This document shows positions 8,729 through 26,050 of a DNA stretch of 28,927 nt, piece by piece. The first letter of the stretch is position 1. Every line of letters begins with the position of its first letter. The stretch comes from a virus. Location: positions 1 to 28,927 of IMG/VR virus record IMGVR_UViG_3300028809_000055, one strand, 5' to 3'. A model generated the notes under the pieces. It saw nothing but the letters and a program-made list of their open reading frames with translations. It made no database searches and was not told the DNA's origin. Both the position numbers and the translations under genes were made by a program.

Positions 8729-10102
8729 TTAGCCGACAAGCACTGCACCAAGATCGGTGTCAAGAACCTGGATACCAGCAAGGAAGTCCAGAGTCCACAT
8801 ATGCTTCTGATACGTGGCATCGTAGCTAATGGTGCTACGCATTGCCAGACCATTCATGCTAACGCTGCTGGAAAGCGCACCAGCACCGCTCTTAACCGGA
8901 GCAAGACCGCGGATCGCGAGTGTGATCGCGTCCCGGTGAATGCACAGGTTGTAAGCACCAGCCGGACCGATGTTAACCGTAGCGTCGTTAACAATAGCAT
9001 CGGCCAGTGCCCGGTCAAGGGTAATGCCCGTAGTACCGTTAACAGCGATGATGGTGTAACGGTTGGTCGTATCCGTACCGAAGGTAACGAACTGGCCAAC
9101 ACGCGGAGCCACCGTGAAACCATCAACAGTGATTTCCTTAGACCAACCAGCCGCGTAACCTGCAAGCAGGTTAACAGCACCCGGCGTATAGACAGTCACG
9201 GTCGCATCGTCGGCAACAGCGCGAACAAGGCCATACGAAAGCGTAATAGCCGTGGTCGGAGCAGTACCAGTACGAGCCGAAACTTGGTAAGGAATACCGT
9301 CGATAGCAACCCACGTACCAACAGTGATTTCGCCCGTACCGGTGTCAACGGTAAGAGCTGTATCACCAACATTGTAACCCGCGGCGTTATTGATAGCAAA
9401 CGAGCGAACGGTGTTGCCGTTAGCCACGTTAGCCATGTTGAGGTCTTTGTAGAAGTCAAAGCCCAACTTGTGACCGATGGTTGCATTACGCAGACCTTCG
9501 GTGTCACCGCGCTTATCAGCAGACGTGAACCATTCCGGACGCAGCATATCACCTTCAGTCTTGCTGCTCAGAATCAGGTTACGACCAGCCTCGTAAGCCT
9601 TGTTATCATCCATCACCTGACGGAGATCGATGATGTAATCCTTAACATTGCTGGTGGTAATGCCGTTAAGCTTACCAGCAACGTTAGGAAGGAATCGAGG
9701 ATACTGGCCGAGAACCGTCCGGTCAACCATACGAGCCAAAGCGATAGCTGCCGGACGAGCGTACTCTTCCGAAAGCTTCTTCATCGACATCGTCTCTTCG
9801 ATATCGTCGATGGTGAACGTAACGTGGCACCACTGGTCCAGCGTAACCTGGACGTTATCAGCGATCGCGTCCTGAATGGTGACAGCGTCACCCTTCACCT
9901 TACGCTTACCCTCGAACTCACGCGGACGACGGGTGTTAACCACGTCACCGAACTTCTGGAAATACTTCTCAAAGTCGCGGTTCACAAGGCTAGCCGCAAC
10001 CATATTTTCTTCAAGAATAGCAAGCGTCTCATTCGCCCACCACTCCGGAATGTACGGGTCGATCTGGTTGTCGAAGTAGGTAACAGTCTTGAGCTTTAAC
10101 AT
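8729..10102 (-). CDS. Major capsid (coat) protein, P22 gp5-like
   Basis: Predicted 457 residues, with AAAAGGGT upstream of ATG 10102. It forms the head shell. The N-terminal third has the P22-coat-like pattern: an N-terminal helix (WWANETLAILEENMVAASLV), FEKYFQKFGDVVNTRRPREF and later DIEETMSMKKLSEEYARPAA and QVMDDNKAYEAGRN. Residues ~242-306 and ~320-378 are two successive beta domains (VGTWVAIDGIPYQV with YGLVRAVADDATVTVY; VGQFVTFG with LADAIVNDATVNI), probably surface insertions; the same module is in the tail tube protein. The C-terminus resumes the shell core. The first ten residues (MLKLKTVTYF) resemble those of the scaffold gene product. The antisense strand also carries a long open frame, a by-product of codon bias. 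Confidence 0.88.
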   Translation of the reverse strand: MLKLKTVTYFDNQIDPYIPEWWANETLAILEENMVAASLVNRDFEKYFQKFGDVVNTRRPREFEGKRKVKGDAVTIQDAIADNVQVTLDQWCHVTFTIDDIEETMSMKKLSEEYARPAAIALARMVDRTVLGQYPRFLPNVAGKLNGITTSNVKDYIIDLRQVMDDNKAYEAGRNLILSSKTEGDMLRPEWFTSADKRGDTEGLRNATIGHKLGFDFYKDLNMANVANGNTVRSFAINNAAGYNVGDTALTVDTGTGEITVGTWVAIDGIPYQVSARTGTAPTTAITLSYGLVRAVADDATVTVYTPGAVNLLAGYAAGWSKEITVDGFTVAPRVGQFVTFGTDTTNRYTIIAVNGTTGITLDRALADAIVNDATVNIGPAGAYNLCIHRDAITLAIRGLAPVKSGAGALSSSVSMNGLAMRSTISYDATYQKHMWTLDFLAGIQVLDTDLGAVLVG

Positions 10103-10873: not shown

Positions 10874-11391
10874 GAATCTCTCCTAAGTGAAACACCCAAC
10901 CGCGGACGTAAATAAGGCAATAACAAATTCCATGCAGTTTTGCATGGTATGCCTGAATTAATCCACGGCGGTATTGAACTCCGGTCGTAATCCGACCGTA
11001 ATCCACCATAACCCTGAGAGGACATAGCAAGGTTGTCTGCCTCAGTATCAGGATCAACCCCGTTAAGCAAGGCCAAAGCAAATTCGTATGTGGCTTGCCT
11101 AATGTCTACCGGAACTTCGGTGTCCGTGCCCCTAGGAAACTGCAAAGGTTGATCTTCGTCAGCTTTCTCACCTACGAAATTCAACCTATCAATCCGCTTC
11201 GTTGCACTAACCAAAGCTTGAAGTCGCTTTAATCTTTCCGTATAATGCCATCGTTGACCTTCAAGCATCATAGCGAAATAATTATCCGCTTCTTCGACAC
11301 TACCGTAGATTGGAAGTGTGGAACCATTGGCAACCACAACTTCCTGTGTCAGTAGAATAATGCTTTCAACCGACCGGATGATGATTGCCAT
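10870..11391 (-). CDS. Head completion adaptor (DnaT-like family) with extra N-terminal repeat
   Basis: Predicted 173 residues, ATG 11391 overlapping the stop of the upstream gene. From about residue 28 it follows the pattern of the phage 'DnaT-like' head-completion adaptors: YGSVEEADNYFAMMLEGQRW, then a helix with LVSATKRIDRLNFVGEKADE, LQFPRGTDTEVPVDIRQATY and a helix EFALALLNG. These bind under the portal. The first ~25 residues (IIRSVESIILLTQEVVVANG) are one copy of the 'S.I.LTQ.V.V' beta repeat found many times in the neighbouring fibre-like gene, so the adaptor seems to have gained this module. The C-terminal part (NLLLPYLRPRLGVSLRR) is basic. Confidence 0.72.
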   Translation of the reverse strand: MAIIIRSVESIILLTQEVVVANGSTLPIYGSVEEADNYFAMMLEGQRWHYTERLKRLQALVSATKRIDRLNFVGEKADEDQPLQFPRGTDTEVPVDIRQATYEFALALLNGVDPDTEADNLAMSSQGYGGLRSDYDRSSIPPWINSGIPCKTAWNLLLPYLRPRLGVSLRRDS

Positions 11392-15828: not shown

Positions 15829-17484
15829 TTACCCTCTAATATCGCTTGAAACGCCTAAGCCTAGAGCGAAGGGTAACGCAATTTCAGCGTAATTCCTCGC
15901 GTGTCCATAGTGGTCATGTCGATTGCCAGGAGTTTCGTACCTAGCAATAGGATTACCGTCCTTATCCTTCTTCGGGATACGGACTTGCGCTTTCACTTGG
16001 TCCTTGTAGGCGATGGTAGTGTCAATAGGCAATAAAATAGTGCCTGTTTTGAAACGTCCAAGGCTTAAATCTAGCCAAGAAGTACGGTCAACATTAATAA
16101 TCGCTTCTTCTTCGCTAGAAATCGTAATATTCCGGCCATTTACGCCAACAGGATACCGACAAAGTTTTACTCTACCAGGAAACCTGTTAGCAAACTCCAA
16201 AGCTTTACGTCGCTCAGGTTGAGAGTCGATCACGCAAAAGTGAACGCCCATATCAAACATTAAGCGGTCAAGTTCTTCGAAGTGGTCAAGTTCCAGGTGA
16301 TTAAGAACCCGGCAACGAGCGTAAGAATTAATATCATGGCCGGAAGCTCCGCCCAAGTCCCACTGGTCAATTTCAACGTGAAGCTGACGACCAACGTCAA
16401 CTCCCATTGTGACAATACCTTGACGATTGAAGTCAATTCTAGAGTGAGTTCCAATACATTGGTCAAGCATCCCGTCAGTAATCCGGGCACCAGCTACAAT
16501 GTGAGGCATTCCGAGCTTTGCATTGAACAATGTTTGCTCGGCAGACGGGTCTTTTAAGCTATTAAGGAAAGCTTTAGCGAAAACCTCCGGATGAAGGTGC
16601 ATCGCGTAAAGCTGATTAATGTAAAAGCCACGAGCGTCCCGCCCAGGATGCTCTGCAACCCACTGACCTTTATTAAGGAACTCAAACTTAGCTTCATGTG
16701 GAAGAACAGCTTTACACTCGTTGCAAATTAAGTGCGATTCTTTAGTACGAGGGTCAGCAGCGTCATCTCCACAAATTACAACATTTTCTGGATATCGTAG
16801 TTCAATCAACTTACTGCAAGACGGACAAGGGAAGAAGAAGTGTTCTTTCGTTGTGTCATTGTAGTAATAATTGATGCCGTAATCAGGAATAGTTGGAGTA
16901 GAAAGCATCAACTGGTGACGCTCGATCTGACCAGAAAGTCGTTCCTGTGCAATAGAGATATTCTCTTGCGCCATTTCGTCAAGTTCATCAAGAACTAGTA
17001 ACGAAACAGGAATCGACATAAGGCCAGATCGAGAGTTCGAGCCACGAATGAACAAGTTTGAAGAACCTGCTCGCTTATGGCCCACGTTTTGAACATCTGA
17101 AAATAACGTTTTTAAGTGTTCTGACAACTCTAACGCTTTATCAAAGCGACTAGAGGAAAAGTCAGCAGCATCAGGGCGGGTATTAGGCAATACGTAGAGA
17201 ACATCCATTCTCTTTACGTCAATAAAGAAGAATGACTTATTAAGTGCCCATTCAGTATACCCGCACTGAGCTGCTTTTTGCCCTACATTGAGGCTAGCTT
17301 TAGAGTCATGCATATCCCTTAGCCAAGGATGGTGTTCAAAAGTCCACAATCCAGGGTAAGGGTGCCCCATATAACGATATTTGCAAGCCCACCGACTAGG
17401 TTCAGTGATCGACTTGCGCGACAGCCCTTGCTGAATGCGTTGGGCTAGCAGCGTTGATAATTGACTCACAGATTTTAGCCCCAA
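15829..17484 (-). CDS. Terminase large subunit (GpA-like)
   Basis: Predicted 551 residues. The packaging motor ATPase and nuclease. The N-terminus EPSRWACKYRYMGHPYPGLW fits the start of GpA-type terminases, so a TTG at 17484 (or GTG at 17469) inside the small terminase gene is chosen over ATG 17370. Motifs: degenerate Walker A VGQKAAQCGYTE (67-78), Walker B LLVLDELDEM (D166, E167), coupling STPT (195-198), a zinc pair CPSC...CNEC (C220, C223, C254, C257), and nuclease acidic residues D363 in MGVDVGRQLHVEI, D420 in CVIDSQPERR and near the C-terminus RHDHYGHARNYAEIAL (about D524). All key residues are present. The 83-base overlap with the small subunit is long but common in compact phages. Confidence 0.9.
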   Translation of the reverse strand: MGLKSVSQLSTLLAQRIQQGLSRKSITEPSRWACKYRYMGHPYPGLWTFEHHPWLRDMHDSKASLNVGQKAAQCGYTEWALNKSFFFIDVKRMDVLYVLPNTRPDAADFSSSRFDKALELSEHLKTLFSDVQNVGHKRAGSSNLFIRGSNSRSGLMSIPVSLLVLDELDEMAQENISIAQERLSGQIERHQLMLSTPTIPDYGINYYYNDTTKEHFFFPCPSCSKLIELRYPENVVICGDDAADPRTKESHLICNECKAVLPHEAKFEFLNKGQWVAEHPGRDARGFYINQLYAMHLHPEVFAKAFLNSLKDPSAEQTLFNAKLGMPHIVAGARITDGMLDQCIGTHSRIDFNRQGIVTMGVDVGRQLHVEIDQWDLGGASGHDINSYARCRVLNHLELDHFEELDRLMFDMGVHFCVIDSQPERRKALEFANRFPGRVKLCRYPVGVNGRNITISSEEEAIINVDRTSWLDLSLGRFKTGTILLPIDTTIAYKDQVKAQVRIPKKDKDGNPIARYETPGNRHDHYGHARNYAEIALPFALGLGVSSDIRG

Positions 17485-20365: not shown

Positions 20366-21037
20366 TTAGTCTGGAATTTTCTTCAACGCTGCGATCACGT
20401 CCTTTAGTGCAGCGGAAAGCTTGGCTTTGTTCCATCCTTGTTGCCCAACCTTTGCAACAAAGTAATCGGCAACTGTATTGCGGACGTTTTGAAGGTCGTT
20501 GCCAATCCGCTTTGGAGTCTCAACCTGAAGAACTTTTTCGACTTCCTTGAAGGATGTATAATTGTCGATATCCTCCAAAACAACTTCGTAGATAGCAGTT
20601 AGCTTTGCCTTTGATTCAGCAGCCGGTGAGACCTTGTAGGCCGCGAGGAGGTCTTTGTAAAGCTGAGAATCGACTGGGACGGGAGTGGGTGAGTCGCCGT
20701 CCGGGGATACAGTAACTTCATGCGTTTCAAGAAACGTTTTTCCACCCTTTGTCCCTGCAATAACGAAGGTATATAACGTAGACTTTTGGTCGGCTGGAAC
20801 CGACTTTTTACCTGGGACGAAGATGATCCATGCTTGGCCACCAAAGTCCTTGGTTGCTAACCAGTCAGGGTTGTCAGGAAAGCACTTAATTTTCGGGTCA
20901 TCAACTTCCAGTTGCGATAATTTCAGCTTTAGCATGTAGCCAACAGTCGCCGTCTTGTCGCCTTCAACCTTAATCTGCGCATTTGCATTGGTAGCTAAAG
21001 CAAAAATCGCGATAATCGCTAAAAACATCTTGTTCAT
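20366..21037 (-). CDS. Exported protein, first gene of late operon
   Basis: Predicted 223 residues from ATG 21037 (a GTG at 21049 is the alternative). MNKMFLAIIAIFALATNANA is a Sec signal peptide with cleavage after ANA. The mature N-terminal half is Ig-like (KVEGDKTATVGYMLKLKLSQ, GQAWIIFVPGKKS, TLYTFVIAGTKGGKTFLETH) with a proline linker (DSPTPVPVD), and the C-terminal half is helical (LYKDLLAAYKVSPAAESKAK, NDLQNVRNTVADYFVAKVGQ). It lies at the 5' end of the left-reading block, preceded by palindromes at 21045-21153. Phage-encoded exported proteins at this place may act in superinfection exclusion or envelope modification; nothing specific can be stated. Confidence 0.6.
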   Translation of the reverse strand: MNKMFLAIIAIFALATNANAQIKVEGDKTATVGYMLKLKLSQLEVDDPKIKCFPDNPDWLATKDFGGQAWIIFVPGKKSVPADQKSTLYTFVIAGTKGGKTFLETHEVTVSPDGDSPTPVPVDSQLYKDLLAAYKVSPAAESKAKLTAIYEVVLEDIDNYTSFKEVEKVLQVETPKRIGNDLQNVRNTVADYFVAKVGQQGWNKAKLSAALKDVIAALKKIPD

Positions 21038-21044
21038 TCTGATA

Positions 21045-21153
21045 CTCACTCACTTATTGGACAAAATCGGAGTGTATACACTCCTTCCTACCAGTGATAC
21101 GCAGTTTGCGGCACCAAAAACCATTTTATTTTGTTGTCCAAAAAGCGAGTGAG
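21045..21153. promoter_or_regulatory. Late-leader inverted repeat and central 16-bp palindrome
   Basis: Arms 21045-21064 and 21134-21153 are complementary at 18 of 20 positions (first arm begins CTCACTCACTTATTGGACAA). Between them sits the perfect palindrome GGAGTGTATACACTCC at 21069-21084. The set lies directly upstream of the first minus-strand late gene, overlapping its leader. It could bind a dimeric regulator as DNA or fold in the mRNA leader. Symmetry is directly seen; role is inferred. Confidence 0.6.
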
Positions 21154-21292: not shown

Positions 21293-21403
21293 AAAATTGG
21301 GGAATCCCGCTTAGTATCCTAGGTACGTCCAACGTTCGTACAAGTGTATTAGTGTTAGAAGAACTAACCCACCCACCCTCGTCAGACTGTCAGACTGTCA
21401 TAC

Positions 21404-21537
21404 TCTAACGAGTGTTAGAGTATGATACTTAGACGATTGTTTGAGCATGACATTCTAACACTCGTTAGACTATCAGGTGTACGGATTCACTGACACTTGT
21501 ACTACCTTGCGAACGTGACATTCTAACAGTGGTTAGA
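21404..21537. promoter_or_regulatory. Three TCTAAC-N4-GTTAGA palindromic sites
   Basis: Sites at 21404-21419, 21454-21469 and 21522-21537 all read TCTAAC, four variable bases, GTTAGA. The first extends to 12-bp arms (21398-21425). Starts are 50 and 68 bases apart, and the last two are also preceded by TGACAT. Equal half-sites with a variable middle are typical of operators for a dimeric DNA-binding protein. The same half-sites (CTAAC / GTTAG) flank the spacers in the array at 21860-22323. Confidence 0.65.
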
Positions 21538-21545
21538 CTATACCC

Positions 21546-21784
21546 CTAGCAACTATCGTGCCAACGACACTTGTATCATGATCCAAACGTACCCTTGTAC
21601 GGCGAAGCGACCGATTCTAGGGCACCTAGCATCGCCCAGGATCGATCGATTTTCTGACCGTACCTATACCAGTCTTCCGCTTTCGTCGTTCCTAGAGCAT
21701 CCTATGCGATCCTAGGGGCATGACATTCTGTCATCTGACAGATTTACAAGTGTGGCTTTTGGGGTTTGGCACGATAGTTGCTAG
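21546..21784. repeat. Inverted pair of 19-bp repeats
   Basis: Copies at 21546-21564 (CTAGCAACTATCGTGCCAA) and its exact reverse complement at 21766-21784 enclose 201 bp. A third, 16-bp copy in the first orientation is at 24008-24023. No transposase gene is present. The enclosed sequence has other short repeats (CCTAGG, GATCCTAG) but no gene. May be protein-binding sites of the control region. Confidence 0.6.
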
Positions 21785-21859: not shown

Positions 21860-22323
21860 TTAGGCAAGGCTAACACCAACACTTAGGCTAGACTAACGAT
21901 GTACAGTTAGGTGAGGCTAACAAGGTATGTTAGGTGAGGCTAACTAGTCCAGGTTAGGTGAGGCTAACACCAACACTTAGGCTAGACTAAGGACATGGGG
22001 TTAGGTGAGGCTAACACCAACACTTAGGGTAGACTAACAAGGTATGTTAGGTGAGACTAACGATGTGTAGTTAGGTGAGGCTAAAGCGTTCCCTTAGTCT
22101 AGACTAACACCAACACTTAGGGTAGACTAACACCAACACTTAGGTTAGGCTAACTAGTCCAGGTTAGGTGAGGCTAACACCAACACTTAGGTTAGGCTAA
22201 CTAGTCCAGGTTAGGTGAGACTAACGTTCCGCTTTCGTCAAGGCTAACAAGGTTTGTTAGGTGGGGCTAACTAGTCCAGGTTAGGCAAGGCTAAAGCGTT
22301 CCCTTAGTCTGGGCTAACTAGTC
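21860..22323. repeat. Array of about twenty TTAG-N6-CTAA units
   Basis: Roughly 20 units of 14 bp (commonest TTAGGTGAGGCTAA, also TTAGGCTAGACTAA, TTAGGGTAGACTAA, TTAGGTTAGGCTAA) separated by 9-10 bp spacers, giving a 23-24 bp period, about two helical turns. Unlike CRISPR, spacers come from a small set: CACCAACAC six times, CTAGTCCAGG five times, CAAGGTATG or CAAGGTTTG three times, AGCGTTCCC twice, CGATGTACAG and CGATGTGTAG. The unit frame is palindromic (TTAG/CTAA). Likely a multi-site binding array such as an iteron or centromere; the ParB-like gene is 2.4 kb away. Confidence 0.8.
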
Positions 22324-22412
<89 letters not shown>

Positions 22413-22423
22413 AACACGCCTAG

Positions 22424-22499
22424 AACGCTCTAGGATCAACGAACGTAGTTCAACCGTGGGATTTGTGGTCGGAACTACGTTCGTCGATCCTACGCAACG
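22424..22499. repeat. Composite repeat, copy 1
   Basis: Consists of AACGCTCTAGGAT (22424-22436) and a 22-bp element (22478-22499, contains TCGATCCTACGCAACG), which are repeated in the same order at 23368-23453. Each copy lies beyond a transcription terminator on the minus strand. The two parts contain complementary pieces (TAGGATC / GATCCTA) and so can pair. Confidence 0.6.
22431..22492. repeat. 21-bp hairpin with 20-base loop
   Basis: Arms 22431-22451 and 22472-22492 match at 20 of 21 positions; the one mismatch becomes G-U in a minus-strand transcript, so the stem would be continuous in RNA. It follows the terminator of the 93-residue gene on that strand. Its right arm is part of a 22-bp sequence repeated at 23432-23453. 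Confidence 0.6.
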
Positions 22500-22510: not shown

Positions 22511-22544
22511 AAAACGAAAACGCCCCGCGAGACTCGCGGGGCGT
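22511..22544 (-). terminator. Intrinsic terminator of 93-residue gene
   Basis: Perfect 11-bp GC-rich stem (ACGCCCCGCGA / TCGCGGGGCGT) with 3-base loop, followed on the minus strand by TTTTCGTTTT. Almost identical to the terminator at 23466-23498. Confidence 0.9.
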
Positions 22545-22562: not shown

Positions 22563-22844
22563 TTAGACGCGAAACTCGCGTTCTGTCAGACGCAACGCGA
22601 GGTCAAACCTTCCCGCCTGATTCGCGGCAACGATGTTACGGAACGTCCAACCGTCGCGGGAGAGTTGCGGAGAGGTCGCGGGGATGATTTCAACACTCGC
22701 GTGAGGGTCTAACCGATGGTCCGCCGCGACACGTTCGGCATCTTCCCGCGAGTAGCGTGCAGCGTATCCGACGCAACCGACTAGTTGCCGATCGATTGCG
22801 TAGGCGACCCAACGCGAACAAGTTGTAACCTTGACGATGAACAT
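22563..22844 (-). CDS. Small hypothetical protein, 93 residues
   Basis: ATG 22844 preceded by CGGAGAAACACA, a good site. It forms its own unit between two terminators. The sequence (MFIVKVTTCSRWVAYAIDRQ, YAARYSREDAERVAADHRLD, SVEIIPATSPQLSRDGWTF, LRLTEREFRV) has a short beta-alpha-beta start followed by a helix with an AERVAA pattern, then an unusual Arg-rich end. High GC and Arg-rich coding contrasts with the late operon. No family recognised. It reads like a small accessory protein expressed early, but that is not shown. Confidence 0.6.
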   Translation of the reverse strand: MFIVKVTTCSRWVAYAIDRQLVGCVGYAARYSREDAERVAADHRLDPHASVEIIPATSPQLSRDGWTFRNIVAANQAGRFDLALRLTEREFRV

Positions 22845-23990: not shown

Positions 23991-24153
23991 GATGAAAGCT
24001 CCTGGGTGCAACTATCGTGCCAAACTTTCCGGAAACTTTATTTGCATCTCGCGTGGCAGGGGCTAGATACATGGTGTCGGTTCCACTGCCGACGACAACC
24101 GATCTTTGAAAACCCGACCCGCACACAGTAACTCGCAACGCGAGTTGCCCGCA

Positions 24154-24328
24154 ACCTCGACAACGCGAGGTGCAAGGGTAACGCGAAACGAGTGAACCGG
24201 GCGGGTCGCGTCAGACGGTTCTGACGCGAGTAGACGCGACCTCACTAGCAAGTAGCGTGCCAGTAGACTGAGACTGTAGGGATTACGCTCCGCGGAAGTG
24301 TCGGCGACCTCGACAACGCGAGGTGCAA
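24154..24328. repeat. Direct repeat with internal hairpin, two copies
   Basis: Identical 22-bp copies at 24154-24175 and 24307-24328, 153 bp apart, each holding the small hairpin CCTCG-ACAACG-CGAGG and ending GGTGCAA. No gene lies between them. Possibly protein-binding sites. Confidence 0.6.
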
Positions 24329-24736: not shown

Positions 24737-26050
24737 ATGTCCGCTAACACCAACCCGACCGTCAAGGCTAACGTTACTGTAGATGAGAAGTTTGAGGTTA
24801 TCCCTGATTCGGTCAAGTGGACCGCTAAGGGCAATAAGATTGTCTATGGTAACATTGCAGACTTGACGGTCGATCCGACCTTGAACATTCGTTTCCGGGC
24901 GGGTTCGGAATTCTTCGGAGTGAAAGTCGAGAAAGACACTTACGACATTCCCGGTATGCGACAACAGGTTGTAGACGGGGGTGGAATTCGTGAACCGATT
25001 TGGGTGTCGGTTCGTGCCGACGCTTCAAAGATTGTCATGCGTGGGAACCGCCGGACGTTGACGGGGCAGGAACTACTTGCCGACGAAACAACTCCAGCGG
25101 AACTACGCAAGGCCCTTTCAGAACGCACACCGATGATTCTGTTTCACGGGTTGACCCCGGAACAAGAAAGGGAAATGGTCAATGACCAAACCCAAAAATC
25201 GTTCCTACGGTCCGAAGTGATTCGGAGTATCTTTGAACTCCGCCGAAATGGTTGGACGTTCCCGCGGATTGCTCGCCTATATTGGGAACCTCTCGGGCGG
25301 TTCACTGGTAATGCCGCGAAGATTGCAGAAATCCGCGACATTACCGACCCCAATGCCAAGATTGAGAAAATCACTACTTGGTTGCGGGGAACACTCGATA
25401 ACTACCTGATTTGGGGTTATGATCTCGGGAAGTTTGTCCAGAAATGCATCATGCTCTCAGTAATGAAGATTGACGGTTTGTTGACTGCAAATGGTGAACA
25501 ACCGTATTTCAATACTGAGAAGAATTCTCAGAAGAGAATCGCAGCGTTGCGTAAGGCGAAGGAAGCCGATGGAACGAAGTTCAATGGTACGATTCCGCAA
25601 GAAGGATCGGAATTCAAGAAACTATTGGATGAGTACCACTCGCAAGATTACGGTGCGACTCCGGTGGTTCGGAATCCAGGTCCGAAAATGATGGCACGGA
25701 AGGATTTGGAGGGTATTAAGGGTAGCTTCCAATCACAGGCTATTAGCCAAATGTTGGAACACATCCTTGATACTAACAAGCCCTTGCCTACTTCGGCGGA
25801 TGAATTTACGGCAATGTGTGAGACAAAGGCAATGCTGGTAGAACAGTATTTGCCGCGTCTCAAGCCTGAGATTGCCGCAATCATCCGACTATGTTTCGTC
25901 AATCCCGATCCAATGGATTTCCAGAACTATCTGGAATCCAATCAGGTTGAGGAAATCACAACGGAACCGGAACCGGAAACGTTCGATCTGCCGAATGAGT
26001 CGGAATCCGCGGCAGCGGAAGATGAGCAATCCGTTCCGCCCGTTGAGTGA
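24737..26050 (+). CDS. ParB-like nuclease-fold protein
   Basis: Predicted 437 residues from ATG 24737, which has CGGAGAAG eight bases upstream; an upstream in-frame start at 24680 lacks a ribosome site. Residues ~35-110 look like the ParB/sulfiredoxin fold: YGNIADLTVDPTLNIRFR, GIREPIWVSVRADASKIVM and the box RGNRRTLTGQEL (G103, R105, R106), like the ParB GERR motif. A probable helix-turn-helix follows at ~147-170 (EVIRSIFELRRNGWTFPRIA). The centre is helical, and the last ~15 residues are acidic. It may bind the nearby arrays as a partition or transcription factor, or act as a ParB-type CTPase or nuclease. No ParA is in the window. It is enclosed by inverted repeat E. Confidence 0.7.
   Translation: MSANTNPTVKANVTVDEKFEVIPDSVKWTAKGNKIVYGNIADLTVDPTLNIRFRAGSEFFGVKVEKDTYDIPGMRQQVVDGGGIREPIWVSVRADASKIVMRGNRRTLTGQELLADETTPAELRKALSERTPMILFHGLTPEQEREMVNDQTQKSFLRSEVIRSIFELRRNGWTFPRIARLYWEPLGRFTGNAAKIAEIRDITDPNAKIEKITTWLRGTLDNYLIWGYDLGKFVQKCIMLSVMKIDGLLTANGEQPYFNTEKNSQKRIAALRKAKEADGTKFNGTIPQEGSEFKKLLDEYHSQDYGATPVVRNPGPKMMARKDLEGIKGSFQSQAISQMLEHILDTNKPLPTSADEFTAMCETKAMLVEQYLPRLKPEIAAIIRLCFVNPDPMDFQNYLESNQVEEITTEPEPETFDLPNESESAAAEDEQSVPPVE

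Follow-up and report, generated by a model that had tools for sequence, protein, structure and literature searches.

Organization of the locus

The window analyzed here, 28,927 bp long, spans a complete IMG/VR record that is classed as linear and represents a phage fragment. A leftward structural operon encodes the tape measure, major head protein, portal and terminase, with the terminase large subunit (TerL) at 15829-17484 (minus strand), and ends at its first gene, which specifies a secretion-signal-like protein (20366-21049, minus strand). Between this late operon and the side occupied by a rightward gene for an orphan ParB-like protein (24737-26050, plus strand) is a 1.4 kb intergenic region that contains an array of 20 TTAG-N4-G-N-CTAA units (21860-22317, plus strand). 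The array is followed directly by a (CAGG)22 microsatellite (22324-22411) and then by an inverted repeat with 21-bp arms, 95% complementary, and a 20-nt loop (22431-22492). Small leftward genes with strong terminators sit between the intergenic region and the ParB-like gene, and the intrinsic terminator (22520-22544, minus strand) of one of them (22563-22844) insulates the array region. Neither the array nor the surrounding intergenic DNA matched annotated phages or plasmids.

On the late-operon side of the array, three CTAAC-N4-GTTAG inverted repeats (21400-21537, minus strand) occupy a probable late-operon leader (21380-21550, minus strand) that folds strongly as RNA (z -4.4). Stem-loops of the forms TCTAAC-N4-GTTAGA and TCTGTC-ATCT-GACAGA (near 21728) have a common shape built from different arms. 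Elsewhere in the window, a 432-aa open frame (8801-10099, plus strand) covers the major head protein gene in antisense orientation and is probably an artifact of coding bias.

The array is a non-random row of predicted protein sites

A first-pass annotation of this DNA had described about twenty TTAG-N6-CTAA units with a small, reused set of spacers, and both parts of that description were borne out. Nineteen units are exact and the twentieth, at 22234, is degenerate by one mismatch (TTCG-N6-CTAA), against a chance expectation for the whole window of 0.49 (maximum 3) in dinucleotide simulations; the only exact copy outside the array, at 11391, is within a gene. Spacers are 9 or 10 bp long and fall into about six types: CACCAACAC (six copies), CTAGTCCAGG (five), CAAGGTATG/TTTG (three), CGATGTACAG/GTGTAG (two), AGCGTTCCC (two, plus one derived copy) and GGACATGGGG (one). 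This reuse rules out a CRISPR, in agreement with the first-pass annotation, and no cas-like protein was found among the window ORFs scanned. Repeated shuffling of units had also been suggested, and we could specify the shuffled element. The type of a spacer is associated with the left half of the unit that follows it (mutual information 1.51 versus 1.05 when shuffled, P=0.0024) and shows no association with the right half of the unit that precedes it (P=0.31), so the copied block consists of a spacer plus a left half. Read from its sequence, the array has grown by duplication or exchange of such blocks.

Other elements of the earlier description had to be revised. Units recur every 23 or 24 bp, with a mean period of 23.37 bp that corresponds to ~2.2 helical turns instead of the two proposed, and unit centers in the window array show no helical phasing at 10.5 bp (R=0.06). 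This contradicts the idea of a dimer bound to one DNA face, rules out a one-face helical filament, and would fit a loading site better than such a filament. The palindromic frame does suit a dimeric protein, although the dyad is imperfect: position 9 is G in 30 of 30 units (20 in the window and 10 in its closest relative), making the motif directional. RNA folding of the array is weak (z -1.2), which places its function at the DNA level; together with the lack of an Rfam match, it rules out a structured RNA. The array is a real, non-random row of predicted dyad protein sites, whose function we infer.

Array position is kept among relatives while array sequence is not

Relatives were sought with TerL: 58 related loci came from viral contigs, whereas the cellular genome collection yielded none. 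The closest relative (L002; 85% TerL identity) has 10 units of the window's motif in the same intergenic place, at spacings of 14, 22 and 23 bp. A more distant one (G003; 61% TerL identity) is 94.6 kb long with contig ends that overlap by ~120 nt, and was taken as a complete relative; it has replication genes of its own and resembles a virulent-type phage. Its late genes and parB are collinear with the window, and the first gene of the late operon is collinear in both L002 and G003. The junction in G003 is occupied by a 0.4 kb tandem array of a different, ACGTGTCAC-type sequence, with a motif that reappears past the parB operon, at 6.4-6.5 kb.

Tandem arrays also adjoin the orthologous parB in G007 and G020. 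In G006, one contig end has upward of 40 CATATG dyads, most of them spaced at 16 bp, and the opposite end has parB; adjacency is probable but would require a circular genome. No obvious array was seen beside parB in G026, and the arrays of G003 and G020 are not dyad-rich. The position of the array is widely kept across these relatives and its sequence is not. The conservation that the first-pass annotation proposed to look for therefore exists for position, whereas the array sequence is lost beyond the closest relative; this loss, and the conserved late-operon junction itself, were absent from that annotation.

Several further features of the relatives were observed. The G020 array (L121 4227-4573), beside the parB orthologue, is composed of CTAG-bounded segments that are shuffled and inverted. 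The contig ends of G003 (L118 85-133 with L003 1-40) meet at a perfect palindrome with 22-bp arms, whose loop occurs in both orientations, reflecting either assembly ambiguity or a flip-flop hairpin. The same genome has, in the stretch that separates parB from the small leftward genes, a very long inverted repeat with 56-nt arms (89%, 128 nt apart; L118 2523-2762). At 55501-56029 and 56604-56782 it also has a second ParB-type gene together with an adjacent tandem array, GCTTATCAGGTAT. PF02195 matches elsewhere in the relatives represent a second ParB type, mostly without adjacent arrays.

An orphan ParB-like protein is the best candidate binder

The ParB-like gene lies 2.4 kb from the array, and its product has a GNRR motif and a helical DNA-binding region. 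Pfam ParB_N was not recognized in this protein, which had no match in phages, yet its AlphaFold model (mean pLDDT 67, pTM 0.58; residues 31 to ~280 fairly well predicted) gave as best Foldseek matches Noc (7ng0), ParB-CDP (6sdk), KorB (8qa9, TMt 0.50) and ParB (7bm8). Five orthologues keep both the GNR(R) motif and an invariant Asp. The earlier idea that a ParB-like protein uses the array thus gains partial support, from the ParB/Noc/KorB fold and from the arrays that adjoin its orthologue in several relatives. Its centromere aspect fares less well: a ParB-fold protein near clustered palindromic sites recalls the parS clusters of ParABS systems, but ParA (PF13614) is absent from both the window fragment and the complete relative, the phage site is unlike parS, and that relative appears to be of virulent type with replication genes.

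Two orphan or long-range members of the family offer further parallels. KorB of the IncP plasmid RK2 (the KorB-OB system) is a ParB-family CTPase clamp and long-range repressor that affects promoters up to 1.5 kb away through sliding (PMC11790492), and its palindromic operators, TTTAGC(C/G)GCTAAA, carry TTTAG/CTAAA, and hence TTAG/CTAA, half-sites (PMC2680271). KorB sites (TTTAGCSGCTAAA) differ from those of the window in having N3 between TTAG and CTAA and in not forming a 20-copy array, and KorB works with KorA; no OB site was present here at up to 2 mismatches. VirB, the Shigella antisilencer, is an orphan ParB-type clamp that loads upstream of promoters, although a single virS site suffices and there is no long array (PMC10770331); any regulation of this kind in the phage studied here would be hypothetical. 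Divergent ParB-fold proteins of plasmids and prophages are mostly orphans (PMC12704722).

Taken together, these points make the ParB-like protein the best candidate binder of the array. We tentatively favor the reading, possible though short of probable, that the array is a cluster of loading sites for this orphan ParB/KorB-type protein, serving DNA organization or control of the flanking promoters. Dimers would recognize the TTAG and CTAA half-sites, close as nucleotide-gated clamps and then spread over the flanking control region, where they might organize or tether replicated phage DNA, with a possible effect on segregation; alternatively, they might modulate transcription from flanking promoters, among them the late operon's sigma54-type promoter, in the manner of KorB and VirB. 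The evidence suggests, in short, a predicted landing pad for a clamp protein that organizes phage DNA or controls late genes. The array sequence changes in step with ParB as that protein diverges (to 40% identity and below), and L002, as a close relative, still has the motif; this pattern fits a site co-evolving with a phage-encoded binder. Against this stand the half-site spacing of N6 versus N3 in KorB, the lack, at up to 2-3 mismatches, of any match to a site known for KorB, parS or Noc, the parB of G026 with no array beside it, the G003 and G020 arrays poor in dyads, and a directional motif that is odd for a symmetric dimer.

Sigma54-type promoter motifs lie beside the array

The sequence TGGCAC-N5-TTGCW is the sigma54 -24/-12 consensus. 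Four perfect matches occur in the window (0.04 expected), all between 21.5 and 24.3 kb, and three in L002 (0.0 expected; at 1091, 2213 and 2269), compared with three in 1.22 Mb of the other viral loci. These motifs had escaped the first-pass annotation. One, TGGCACGATAGTTGCT (21548-21563, minus strand), points at the late operon, with the array ~0.3-0.75 kb upstream of it; an identical, inverted copy (21767-21782, plus strand) points into the array. The other two, TGGCACGATAGTTGCA (24007-24022, minus strand) and TGGCACGCTACTTGCT (24247-24262, minus strand), have no TTAG dyad upstream, and no TTAG-N6-CTAA within 1 mismatch was found between 22318 and 26043. As sequence matches, the motifs suggest a sigma54-using host and RpoN-dependent late transcription. 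Such promoters at the late operon would tie the phage to host RpoN, an arrangement of which no natural phage example appeared among the papers listed in the literature searches.

Alternative readings of the array

These motifs raise the alternative that the array is an enhancer for a sigma54 activator, a bacterial enhancer-binding protein of host or phage, which would act on the -24/-12 promoter at 21548 to drive the late operon. The perfect motifs at 21548 (minus) and 21767 (plus) are within reach, the array is upstream of a leftward promoter in both the window phage and L002 and sits between divergent motifs in the latter, and within the lineage the motif array and the promoters, so rare in other viral loci, occur together only in these two. 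The promoters themselves are convincing, but we regard an enhancer as unlikely: two of the four motifs (24007 and 24247) lack an upstream dyad and a third (21767) has the array downstream, G003 and other relatives have arrays with no sigma54 motifs, and the long relatives, G003 and G006 among them, yielded no activator gene (PF00158). Twenty sites that begin 300 bp away would also be unusual for an enhancer. Iterons of a replication origin, which the first-pass annotation had raised together with a GC-skew check, would account for the tandem dyads, the inverted repeat and the A+T-rich stretch that the window has in an intergenic region where the coding strand switches, and for the recurrence of arrays at the same junction in relatives; iteron origins of plasmids and phages likewise have tandem sites of ~22 bp in a control region. 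The window units are palindromic, however. In the complete relative the skew runs leftward nearly everywhere and does not change direction at the array, leaving an origin unsupported by this measure; no initiator gene adjoins its array, its replication genes lie far away (primase at position ~57 kb), and its array motif occurs again at 6.4-6.5 kb. An origin is accordingly an unlikely function.

Repressors that bind TTAG/CTAA half-sites form another group of alternatives. Operators of some late regulator or repressor whose phage gene lies beyond the fragment would be in keeping with the occurrence of TTAG-N6-CTAA clusters (at least 3 sites, ~22-24 bp spacing) in many unrelated phages, a few of them adjoining HTH/Cro-type genes; the window array adjoins no HTH gene, however, and its 20 sites are far above the usual number of operators, making this reading quite unlikely. 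An operator or decoy for a host metal-dependent repressor of the DtxR/IdeR type, serving regulation or titrating the repressor, is a separate alternative. Judged against the published IdeR consensus (PMC8464063), 17 of 20 window units and nine of 10 L002 units are one mismatch from the half-site TTAGGNNNNCCTAA; both systems place TTAG/CTAA half-sites in a 14-bp site, and two Dadabacteria contigs have three TTAG-N6-CTAA units directly next to a 225-aa gene that is apparently DtxR-family, from Pfam hits assigned by position and length. No unit equals the half-site exactly, though, C never occurs at position 10 of the window units, the best match to the 19-bp consensus has 4 mismatches, and the window fragment encodes no metalloregulator. 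Because array sequences in the relatives are unrelated at the same locus, the constant partner is more likely to be phage-encoded, and a DtxR/IdeR operator or decoy is distinctly improbable.

The ParB-like protein as a loaded clamp also admits a bolder form, which we consider unlikely as a whole: an orphan ParB/KorB-type clamp on a fast-evolving array would switch or insulate the late operon, in this branch at a promoter that depends on host sigma54, and protein and site would evolve rapidly in concert. Were it true, this sliding-clamp late switch would be unlike known phage late regulators. Binding of the array by the ParB-like protein would by itself show a ParB-family clamp at work with no ParA, in a phage with a complete relative that has replication genes of its own; the role of the clamp would probably be gene control or DNA organization and not partition, and the relatives would then provide a natural set of ParB proteins and sites whose specificities diverge.

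TTAG-N6-CTAA arrays in other genomes

Clusters of at least three TTAG-N6-CTAA sites were present at 49 loci in viral contigs, versus 5 and 8 for two controls of the same composition. No neighboring gene was common to the arrays of other phages and bacteria, so they did not reveal the identity of a binder. Apparent DtxR-family genes lie beside only two of these other arrays, those of Dadabacteria, where the three units (L150 1145-1202; L172 901-958) are a likely operator of the adjoining 225-aa gene. Arrays of TTAGG-N4-CCTAA-like sites with a 22-bp period occur in Bacteroidales and Kiritimatiellae (L138, L141, L144, L145, L160, L161, L163 and L164); they are intergenic with respect to genes in any orientation, some lying between convergent genes. 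In an unrelated high-GC phage, a TTAG-N6-CTAA cluster (L050 347-501) contains a canonical parS-like sequence, GTTTCACGTGAAAT. Lastly, five phage contigs (L018, L037, L038, L043 and L047) have GTGAGYRCTCAC near their TTAG-type arrays, a sequence that we take to resemble the SlmA nucleoid-occlusion site.
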